Notes under the pieces: model-generated
What the model saw: the letters and a program-made list of their open reading frames with translations, nothing else
The model's database searches: none
Told to the model about the DNA's origin: nothing
In this document: positions 12,181 through 39,172 of the stretch, piece by piece
Numbering within the stretch: position 1 is the first letter of the stretch
Layout: every line of letters starts with the position of its first letter
Program-made: the position numbers and the translations under genes
NCBI RefSeq assembly: GCF_000003605.2
Contig: NW_003132353.1
Coordinates: forward strand, 10,310 to 52,510
Direction: 5' to 3'
DNA from: Saccoglossus kowalevskii
Lineage: Eukaryota > Hemichordata > Enteropneusta > Harrimaniidae
DNA length: 42,201 nt

Positions 12181-12236
12181 TTCAATTACGTAGTTCGAGC
12201 GGAAAATCGCTTCATCGACCGACAACCCATCCTGCG
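12181..12236 (+). CDS. Gene A exon (prodomain, 56 nt)
   Basis: Acceptor TTTTTGATTTCAG ends at 12180 and donor GCG|GTAAGT begins at 12237. After two bases completing a split codon, the exon reads 18 codons, QLRSSSGKSLHRPTTHPA, and ends in phase 0. This matches the phase of the next exon. The peptide is basic and serine-rich with no cysteine, as expected for part of a propeptide. The other two frames contain a stop or do not fit the next exon. Confidence 0.7.
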
Positions 12237-37300: not shown

Positions 37301-39172
37301 AATAGAACATGTTGAACAGACGAGCGAAAATATAAAGAAATAAACTCACGCGTGGGTGTTTGTGTTTTTGTTTCAAAGTTGCCAATCATGCCGGTTGCCA
37401 CTCTGTTACAAAAAAAAATGCTATTCAAAAAACCGGACGTTCTTTTCAGACCTCGAAATGCAACGTACAGTTGAACGTCCACAGCAAAACGACCAACTCA
37501 CTAGTTAATATATAACCTTGTAGATGAATTGAAAAGACGAGTTGGTGAACGATTAATACGGGACAATCAACACGCGGCATACACAGTGTATACTATTATG
37601 TAAAATGATTAATGTATTGTGAAATGTTATGTTCAGTAAATTGTATGAAGATACAGACGTTTTAACATTTTTGTATAAGCTTGCATATCAAACAAAACAA
37701 ATAGTGTGTCAGTATATTCCGCTCATGTAATCTTGTCAGAATAAAAACAATTGTTAACATGTTGTTACACGCATCTATACATTGACATCAGTATTATAAA
37801 CTTGCTGTTTCATTAGGTTTTCAGAAGCCTTGTCGGCTGTTGAGAACAAGTAATTTATCGACAGACCTATATCAAATAACATTGCTATAATTCAATAATC
37901 TGATCGATTAAACGTTTGATAGCAACAATATGGGACAGACTCGCCACAATGTCCTTCTTACTTCCCGTCTACTCTGCGTGAGAGCGATTATTTTTAGATT
38001 TTACGATCAATTCGTAGATGTAATTAACTTATCTACAGCGAAGGTGTTGTCAGATTAATCGCTGTGGTTTATTGTATTCGTTCCGTACTGACGCAGCTGG
38101 AAGTTATACAATCAACTCCTCGAAAGCGGTTTTTTAAACCTACTTTAAATATTTAGTTCCTCACCACCCTGTTTTTTCTGATCGTGTGAACAACGAAGAC
38201 AGATAAATATGAGTAAAAGTCATGCTACTCGTCAGTATCTATATTATTATCAATTTCGCTAGTAGGCAAGAAAATCTCAGGTGTTATTCAATATGTTGGA
38301 AGGACATATATACGATTTCCCGCAATGACATCATTATGCAAGCACTTTACTAATCTCTTCAATCACCTAGGCATCAGATCAGGCTTAATTATTCCCTAGA
38401 TAACATATTCACCGTGTGAAAATCAATGCAAATTGCCATGGTAACACCGTGACCAAAACTCTATAGGATAATGAATATCCGCAATGTAACTAGATTATAT
38501 TACAGATATCGTAACTTATTGCATACATAATTCGGTTAGACATAGAATACATACACAAAATGTGATCAATGATGAATCAATTATTCGAATTAATGAAAAT
38601 TGTGTAAAAAAATGTACAATCAAGAGATATAACCATAAATTGTAAAATAATTAAAATAATATGTGATACAAAGTTGAAATTATCATGTACGAGAGGAATC
38701 TTTACAATTCTGTATATAGCGCCCGGTCTTAATAAAAGCAAACGATAATATTCTTCCCTGCTGACTCACTTTTACATTGCATTACACAATCTTTAAAAAA
38801 CAGTGTTGTTTGATTACAATACAACTGGCATTTGTACACCATTTCGCGAACAGTACAACTAATGTAAATTGCCATCTGTTTCTTTCAATATTTTAAACCA
38901 ATTACTTTACGCTCAGCGTCGATTTTTTCCAGTTTTTGCCTGTAGTAGCGTTTTGTTCTCAACACGACTGACATGTGCAAATGTGCAAATAACATATTAG
39001 TAAGTCCAAAAAAGTGTACATAAATGAGACTTAAATGTGCATAATTTAAAGTATACCTTTACAAATGTAGATATAGAAAACAATAATACATATTTGACTT
39101 ACCATTATGGAAAATCAGGGTTGACATGAATAAGACGGAAAGTGTTACTCTGATAAGTAGCGTTGAATTCAT
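28208..39172 (-). CDS. Gene B: neurotrophin/Spaetzle-like cystine-knot ligand (coding span, multi-exon)
   Basis: Coding span of a second secreted cystine-knot ligand precursor. Exons in order on the minus strand: 39172-39103 (signal peptide), 31541-31515, 30882-30787, 30085-29847, 29145 to about 28968, probably 28557-28461, and 28337-28208 (end of knot, stop). Phases 1-1-1-1-0 chain without conflict through the first five exons. The prodomain (about 165 residues) has few cysteines and ends in KPNKR. The knot follows, with its last third clearly recognisable. Compared with gene A the prodomain is longer and its sequence is unrelated by eye, while the knot tail is shared. The weak point is the middle of the knot: the donor after the first knot cysteine and the next small exon are my best guess. 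Confidence 0.75.
28461..28557 (-). CDS. Gene B: possible middle-of-knot exon
   Basis: Between acceptor CCCTACACTGCAG (ends 28558) and donor ACATC|GTAATT (28460), a 97-base exon would enter in phase 1 and leave in phase 2. That is what its two proposed neighbours require. It reads TSNLRNSPLSYITVAC, then TPC, giving two cysteines (C..C) where the second and third knot cysteines should be. In gene A these two are six residues apart, here only two, and the donor is weak. An alternative acceptor at CTTCAG (exon start 28592) keeps the same frame and adds LWYPYTAE, which would lengthen the loop. The call is tentative. Confidence 0.3.
28968..29145 (-). CDS. Gene B exon: prodomain end, KR site, start of knot
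   Basis: Acceptor AAAAAGTGCAG (ends 29146; branch-like CACTAATG upstream) starts phase 0, matching the previous exon. It reads FSSSTLEVSNSKPNFHG, a Ser-rich stretch, then CKPNKR, GVLDIFAEC and SSAELW. The Lys-Arg pair, eight residues, then C-x5-W match gene A (Lys-Arg, seven resides between, then C-QSVSE-W). This suggests the mature domain starts here. The frame meets a stop three codons after the Trp, so a donor must precede it; GGC|GTGATT at 28967 (phase 1) is weak. The stronger donor CTGT|GTAAGC at 29033 also gives phase 1, but would drop the KR site and the first knot cysteine. The 5' end is solid, the 3' end uncertain. Confidence 0.55.
29716..29792. repeat. (AATC)n microsatellite, about 19 pure units
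   Basis: Uninterrupted AATC repeats, with imperfect units extending upstream to about 29678. It lies in a gene B intron, only about 55 bases past the donor of the 29847-30085 exon. Confidence 0.97.
29847..30085 (-). CDS. Gene B exon: main prodomain exon (239 nt)
   Basis: Acceptor GTCTTTGCCATATTCTCAG ends at 30086 and donor GGAATT|GTAAGT begins at 29846. It enters in phase 1 (G of the previous exon plus AT makes Asp) and leaves in phase 0. The 79 codons read LTERMIWNMQKSES and IHVIRSSVNGFYKDIKDHP, then DRVMFAPQKPDLLPD, and end with the acidic/Ser patch GSPNDDDSSGI. The first half has the heptad-like hydrophobic pattern of a helix; the second half is Pro/Asp-rich. There are no cysteines. It looks like a propeptide; no family domain is recognised. 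The frame also runs open upstream of the acceptor, but that reading does not match the phase of the previous exon. Confidence 0.7.
30787..30882 (-). CDS. Gene B exon (prodomain, 96 nt)
   Basis: Acceptor CTCGTTTCATTCAG ends at 30883 and donor ACACG|GTGAGT begins at 30786. Phase 1 in, phase 1 out. The split Gly codon is followed by 31 codons that include ISKASHEPLAPVGPSS, then NLCRPDNGMLQLVLH. It holds the single cysteine of the secure prodomain. Because the phase is symmetrical, the exon could be skipped without changing the frame. Confidence 0.65.
31515..31541 (-). CDS. Gene B micro-exon (27 nt)
   Basis: Acceptor TTAATTAATCACAG (ends 31542) and donor ACAG|GTATGT (31514). Phase 1 in, phase 1 out; it reads (G)LAGSIPTT(G). 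Its only support is good splice sites, matching phase with both the signal exon and the 96-nt exon, and position. Micro-exons with symmetrical phase are often optional. Confidence 0.5.
31542..39102 (-). other. Gene B first intron (7.6 kb)
   Basis: It begins GTAAGT after the signal exon. Apart from the long (ATTT)n array it is AT-rich DNA with only chance-length frames (for example 34057-34374, 105 codons, Lys/Tyr/Asn-rich, no motif). A perfect CRE lies at 33324-33331 and a GGGAAACA/TGTTTCCC hairpin near 34.63 kb. Further small exons cannot be excluded. Confidence 0.5.
32181..32300. repeat. (ATTT)n microsatellite, about 25-30 units
   Basis: About 100 bases of pure ATTT repeats, with one interruption (acttg) near 32193. 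It lies in the first intron of gene B. Confidence 0.97.
39103..39172 (-). CDS. Gene B first exon: signal peptide
   Basis: ATG at 39172 begins 23 codons plus one base: MNSTLLIR, then a hydrophobic core VTLSVLFMSTLIF, then HN, ending in a strong donor ATG|GTAAGT (39102). It leaves in phase 1. The layout (short polar start, 13-residue hydrophobic core, exon end just after) is that of a secretory signal peptide. The completed junction codon is Gly, and cleavage probably falls near HN-G (inference). A TATA box and initiator lie at the right distance upstream, and no other ATG-led exon on this strand fits as well. Confidence 0.75.

Follow-up and report, generated by a model that had tools for sequence, protein, structure and literature searches.

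In the acorn worm Saccoglossus kowalevskii, a hemichordate, we found two neighbouring genes, which we call A and B, that are predicted to encode paralogous secreted ligands of the neurotrophin superfamily, of the divergent "NT2" type of the ambulacrarians. From the sequence evidence, we put the probability of this reading at roughly 85%. The genes lie in a window of 42,201 nucleotides (contig NW_003132353.1, positions 10,310 to 52,510 of the forward strand), and positions below are those of the window unless a locus elsewhere is named. At stake is when Spaetzle (a Toll ligand) and the neurotrophins (ligands of Trk and p75) parted relative to the protostome-deuterostome ancestor. Wilson 2009 (PMC2772990) left open whether the split came before or after that ancestor. 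(What we attribute to this paper, and to the four other papers cited below, refers to excerpts of them.)

A convergent pair of genes with one cystine knot

Gene A is on the forward strand and gene B on the reverse strand. They point at each other, with 11,449 bases between them. Both predicted proproteins end in a seven-cysteine knot with the sequence W.W(V/I).I.TCCTC. The six knot cysteines are present in family order in A and B, the seventh cysteine adjoins Cys V, and 7 residues separate a Lys-Arg (KR) site from the first knot cysteine in both proteins. When the window is translated in all six frames, the motifs TCC.C, W.W(I/V).(I/V/L), and C..K.SW turn up just twice each, once per knot (16633-16731 on the + strand in A and 28226-28324 on the - strand in B).

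A first-pass annotation, made from the letters alone, had proposed tail-to-tail genes for cystine-knot ligands on opposite strands, with a common knot signature and a Lys-Arg site ahead of it. The motif counts, the exon coordinates, and the open frames bear this out, as does the alignment of the two knots (score 187; z = 26 from 300 shuffles), which is far above that of shuffled sequences. It had also described a shared K.K/R.SW motif after a cysteine; the motif is shared, but letter by letter it reads C..K.SW (CLPKRSW and CKEKQSW). Ten of the 62 listed open frames of the window, all outside the knot and prodomain exons, had no Pfam match at E ≤ 0.1.

The knots match neurotrophins better than Spaetzle

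The first-pass annotation had proposed comparing the terminal knots with the Pfam models for NGF and Spaetzle, both of which have a curated cut-off of 27 bits. Both knots pass the NGF cut-off (27.8 for A and 35.2 for B) and neither passes the Spaetzle cut-off (16.3 and 24.9). These were the only two models that matched A or B at E ≤ 10. Similarly, all 18 PDB sequences that A matched at E ≤ 10 were neurotrophin chains, as were 18 of the 19 that B matched; the other match of B was an amidase (E = 0.76). (We counted a chain named "ovulation-inducing factor," which we take to be an NGF, as a neurotrophin.) In pairwise alignments with 300 shuffles each, the knot of A had z = 11.0 and 13.3 against NT3 and NGF, and the knot of B had 11.8 and 9.6. 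Against the Spaetzle proteins of Drosophila and Aedes, the values were 1.3 and 1.5 for A and 5.1 and 1.0 for B. A genome profile search with the Spaetzle family gave no match at E ≤ 0.001. Thus, the mixture of neurotrophin and Spaetzle features that had been pointed out is real, but the scores do not support treating the two families as equals: the NGF model passes and the Spaetzle model fails, and the z-scores are likewise unequal.

Individual sites, as placed in our own alignment, give a similar picture. At Trp130 and Ile/Val133, which are diagnostic sites of Wilson 2009, A has Trp and Val and B has Trp and Ile, as in neurotrophins. The Spaetzle set (an aromatic residue at 133, absence of Trp130, and Pro136) is not matched by A or B, and Pro136 is absent from both. 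Asp18 (Asp30 of NGF) is replaced by Asn in A, B, and a third divergent gene of this genome (C, see below), and it is kept in the genome's canonical neurotrophin gene. The extra cysteine beside Cys V is the only additional cysteine in the knots of A and B, as in Spz1 and Spz2. Judged by these sequence features, A and B are neurotrophins. What they share with Spaetzle is mainly the ending CC.C, to which A adds a single proline.

The shortness of the knots and the marginal NGF score of A might instead fit some other cystine-knot family (trunk/PTTH, noggin, or similar) that came to look neurotrophin-like by convergence. Given that no Pfam models besides NGF and Spaetzle were matched at E ≤ 10 and that the likeness spans the prodomain as well as the knot, we consider this extremely improbable.

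The prodomains share a block that resembles part of proNGF

The prodomains of A and B had been thought unrelated, which the alignments contradict. A block in A (NTQRVVFSSTKPHYTP; 12947-12994, + strand) and a block in B (NSDRVMFAPQKPDLLP; 29910-29957, - strand) align without gaps, and the score between the two prodomains was reached by 0 of 2,000 shuffles. (The shuffle counts in this section are single-test values from ten pairs of prodomains and five tests of the block, and the regular expression for the block was composed once the sequences had been seen.) This shared block supports both prodomain exons as true coding exons. At the sequence level, the block resembles RVLFSTQPP of mammalian proNGF, where the counterpart in the PDB chains reads SPRVLFSTQPP, and we take its RV.F core to be a mark of the family. 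The part of the NGF propeptide that contains RVLFSTQPP has been reported to be required for NGF biosynthesis.

The likeness to proNGF is clearest for B, whose prodomain score none of 1,000 shuffles attained. For A alone the count was 294 of 1,000, though the best alignment falls on the block. For the block of A and B together, the counts were 4 of 5,000 against proNGF and 63 of 5,000 against the canonical gene; for whole prodomains against the canonical gene, they were 2 of 2,000 (B) and 184 of 2,000 (A). B and C gave 19 of 2,000, with an alignment that lies off the block. The other pairs were A with C (349 of 2,000), C with the canonical gene (806 of 2,000), and C or the canonical gene with proNGF (166 and 105 of 1,000, neither alignment being on the block). 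We also considered the prodomain of gene C as a carrier of the block and rejected it: the likeness is by eye only (1,428 and 513 of 5,000 shuffles).

Predicted gene structures

From splice sites and reading frames, gene A (12181-16758, + strand) is predicted to have at least three coding exons with AG/GT borders. The first that we identified is a prodomain exon (12181-12236; phase 1 in and phase 0 out; cag/TTCAATT to CCTGCG/gtaagt). It is followed by the main prodomain exon (12836-13057; phase 0-0; ccag/CCTTTC to ACGAAG/gtaagt), which ends in the residues MTK. The terminal exon (16462-16758) encodes the R of the KR site, the entire seven-cysteine knot, and the stop codon (16756-16758), so the K and the R of the dibasic site are on opposite sides of a splice. 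The exon phases are mutually compatible and the joined frame is open. A degenerate repetitive stretch of CATGCCGTGTATGATG-like units lies in the last intron, ahead of the knot exon (15877-16293); it was seen by eye and is absent from the list of the tandem repeat finder.

For the signal peptide of A, we found only weak candidates in the approximately 22 kb that were scanned (window positions 1-12180 and C2388:1-10000). The best of the three candidates in 1-12180 is at 10857-10962 (+ strand; 35 codons plus 1 base). It has a hydrophobic leader, phase 1, and a donor that matches 6 of 9 consensus places; it was absent from the list of an earlier scan that used a fixed set of donors. The scan that found it placed the likely leader exon of B second of 7. 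The true first exon of A may lie outside the scanned regions.

Gene B (- strand) is predicted to have four coding exons, with AG/GT at the internal borders, phases that fit, and an open joined frame from the ATG to the stop codon at 28210-28208. Exon 1 (39172-39103) has the ATG and a hydrophobic leader, leaves in phase 1, and has a donor that matches 8 of 9 consensus places. Exon 2 (30085-29847; phase 1-0) encodes the prodomain. Exon 3 (29353-29184; phase 0-2) encodes the KR site and the first half of the knot (Cys I-III), and exon 4 (28337-28208) encodes the second half (Cys IV and CC.C) up to the stop. The last intron has two in-frame AG acceptors that are 12 bases apart (28325-28337, - strand; ..TTCTAG/GTATACCTCTAG/GTGC), and isoforms that differ in whether YTSR stands ahead of Cys IV could arise from their alternative use. 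The introns of B also contain two tandem arrays: TCAA (28.8 copies; 29679-29793) in the second intron and ATTT (30 copies; 32181-32301) in the long first intron.

Could one or both genes be decaying pseudogenes or non-functional duplicates? A lacks a convincing signal-peptide exon in the regions scanned, and it forms a long branch in our tree (below), as might be expected of a decaying gene. However, the open frames, the seven cysteines, the splice sites, and the KR site are intact in both genes, and the prodomain block is retained, which makes decay very unlikely.

Relatives in the same genome

Each of four genome queries (the NGF family and the knots of A, B, and C) returned four loci of the family: A, B, a canonical neurotrophin gene, and gene C. 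Because the search scores the best candidates only, the genome has at least four family members. The canonical gene (C3275, L001 1435-2232, - strand; E = 5.9e-28 with the NGF family) has one exon with a frame of 265 amino acids, which includes a leader, an RDKR site, and an NGF knot. Gene C (C3164:1128.6-1130.2 kb, - strand) has a knot that is split between Cys III and Cys IV, and it lacks the CC next to Cys V that A and B have. Its match to the NGF family is below the family cut-off (E = 1.99), and it was found with the knot of B at E = 3.0e-5. A candidate leader exon lies about 7.5 kb upstream, and the phase of this candidate demands one further exon between. Gene C is possibly the NTa of Wilson 2009.

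The knot of C scores 179 with B (z = 29) and 142 with A (z = 22; 300 shuffles each). An intron interrupts the same knot loop in B (phase 2) and C (phase 1), and A has none there; all three genes have an intron adjoining the KR site. In our own alignment, the hairpin loop ahead of Cys II is about 10 residues shorter in A and B than in canonical neurotrophins.

The first-pass annotation had explained A and B by local duplication. This is plausible because they are adjacent and have the CC in common. In an unrooted tree of nine rows, the grouping A+B is not recovered, but it is not rejected either (p-AU values are 0.107 for A+B, 0.107 for B+C, 0.479 for A+C, and 0.105 for A+B+C).

A mitochondrial contig of the assembly (C4830; 17,037 bases, of which 16,500 were read) has cox1, matched by its Pfam family, in inverted orientation, nad2 ahead of nad1, and nad4L behind nad3, which is not how echinoderms are arranged. 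The codon AAA is used, and the anticodon of tRNA-Lys is TTT. (Genes besides cox1 were identified from their translations.) For S. kowalevskii, PMC3121625 reports an inverted COX1, a transposed ND1 or ND2, and AAA read as Lys by a UUU anticodon, which does not hold in Balanoglossus; for echinoderms, it reports a translocated ND4L. The contig therefore fits the genus Saccoglossus.

Proposed action of the ligands

If A and B are members of the neurotrophin superfamily, then secretion, folding assisted by the prodomain, cleavage at KR, and a knot dimer would be expected from that membership. Each gene would encode a signal peptide (of the two, only B has a visible hydrophobic leader), a prodomain with the conserved RV.F block, and a dibasic furin-type site. 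Cleavage after KR would release the mature knot, which is roughly 95 residues long, and the knots would dimerise in the manner of neurotrophins. The extra cysteine beside Cys V would covalently link the protomers, as Wilson 2009 (PMC2772990) describes for Spaetzle and NT2. There, covalent dimerisation is tied to the extra cysteine plus Pro136; because A and B lack Pro136, we can only infer this use of the cysteine. Signalling would probably be via receptors of the Trk/p75 type rather than Toll, and the shorter hairpin ahead of Cys II implies that receptor contacts may differ from those of canonical neurotrophins.

Weighing the neurotrophin assignment

Several observations weigh against this assignment. 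Zhu 2008 (PMC2586362) used one acorn worm sequence, Sk-NT, and found that of all the neurotrophins it was the nearest to DNT1 and Spz; the trees of that paper were unresolved. Gene A clears the NGF cut-off by just 0.8 bit and has a proline at the Spaetzle column Pro13 in our alignment; B has no proline there. In the nine-row tree, A, B, and C lie between Spaetzle and the canonical neurotrophins on long branches, which means that the data do not fix on which side of the root they belong. Structure predictions for the knot of A, alone or with one fragment of B, had mean pLDDT of 53.2 and 47.5 and were unusable. The receptors gave no help: a genome search with the p75 transmembrane family found no match, but this family is short and its only control hit (Bacillus subtilis) was below the cut-off, and among the best four of the 61 matches to a Trk-kinase query, none was Trk-like by eye. 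The frames at these four loci resemble what we take to be MuSK, PTK7, DDR, and Abl.

Some of these points would fit a different reading, in which A and B are the deuterostome orthologues of Spaetzle, the neurotrophin and Spaetzle lineages are older than the parting of protostomes and deuterostomes, and genes of the NT2 type make up the deuterostome side of the Spaetzle lineage. Besides the proline of A and the closeness of Sk-NT to DNT1 and Spz in Zhu 2008 (PMC2586362), this reading could account for Asn18 and for the CC.C ending without another extra cysteine, which Wilson 2009 (PMC2772990) gives for Spz1 and Spz2. It could also account for the split knot of B, as the knots of Spz genes other than Spz4 and Spz6 have a conserved intron (PMC2586362). 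(A literature search found no source for the phases of the Spz introns.) The unrooted tree does put A, B, and Spz on one side, with support of only 36/0. Yet both genes score below the cut-off of the Spaetzle model, their residues at 130 and 133 are neurotrophin-like and Pro136 is missing, and their knots have z = 1.0-5.1 against Spaetzle versus 9.6-13.3 against NT3 and NGF. Furthermore, in the larger tree of Wilson 2009 (PMC2772990), NT2, NTa, and NTb are within the neurotrophins, with 97% maximum-likelihood support at the base of the group. We therefore consider orthology with Spaetzle quite unlikely.

A broader proposal, which we regard as unlikely, is that A, B, and C belong to an ancient bilaterian ligand lineage that is intermediate between Spaetzle and the neurotrophins, or else that they are what corresponds to Spaetzle in deuterostomes; they would form disulfide-linked dimers with a neurotrophin core. 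If it were true, the split between Spaetzle and neurotrophins would be older than the split between protostomes and deuterostomes, and Spaetzle would not be an arthropod invention.

Relation to published work

Our preferred reading, that A and B are NT2-type neurotrophins, builds on a subfamily that has been known since 2008-2009. Wilson 2009 (PMC2772990) assigned NT2 of the sea urchin and two Saccoglossus sequences from expressed sequence tags, NTa and NTb, to a second ambulacrarian group. The paper names the tags FF527248, FF505731, and FF504966, and it reports that NT2 and NTb have the Spaetzle-like cysteine next to Cys V, along with Asn18, and that NT2 has several exons. Lauri 2016 (PMC4812194) follows this grouping. 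If NTa lacks the CC, which the wording of Wilson 2009 implies but does not state, then NTb is A or B. The pair is probably one gene that was already reported and one further paralogue. Among the open-licence PMC papers listed by searches for hemichordate or sea urchin neurotrophins, no title or abstract describes the pair. That such genes bear on the relationship between neurotrophins and Spaetzle, as the first-pass annotation remarked, holds; the point was previously in print (Wilson 2009, PMC2772990; Zhu 2008, PMC2586362).

To this earlier work the assembly adds the genomic layout, the canonical gene, and the multi-exon structure. Wilson 2009 (PMC2772990) preceded the genome; it pointed to the structures of the Saccoglossus genes as worth examining, and the canonical gene could not yet be sought. 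The assembly has one canonical gene with a single exon and three divergent genes with multiple exons, two of which are convergent neighbours. These extra paralogues fit awkwardly with a 2020 eLife study (PMC7535936), which argued that one ancestral neurotrophin gave rise to the vertebrate diversity and which reported no further, previously unidentified neurotrophins in bilaterians.

Comparison with known systems

A and B resemble Spaetzle (C-106 of Drosophila and AAEL013433 of Aedes) in the CC.C beside the fifth knot cysteine and, for A only, in Pro13. They differ from it in their Pfam scores, which are below the cut-off, in having Trp130 and Ile/Val133 and no Pro136, and in being just 15-20% identical to it.

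With the canonical neurotrophins (NGF, BDNF, NT3, NT4, and the canonical gene of this genome), A and B have in common the match to the Pfam NGF model, the W.(W/F)(I/V).I tail, the six knot cysteines, and the KR site. The RV.F block of the prodomain is found in NGF and in A and B and is weaker in the canonical acorn worm gene. Unlike the canonical neurotrophins, A and B have a seventh cysteine, Asn in place of Asp18, a shorter hairpin, and several coding exons.

The closest likeness is to the second ambulacrarian group of Wilson 2009 (PMC2772990). Sea urchin NT2 has Pro136, which A and B lack. A and B are like this group in having knots of the neurotrophin group and Asn18, like NTb and NT2 in having the CC, and like NT2 in having several exons. 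For NTa and NTb, which are probably from the same species as A and B, the likeness is judged by the text of that paper.

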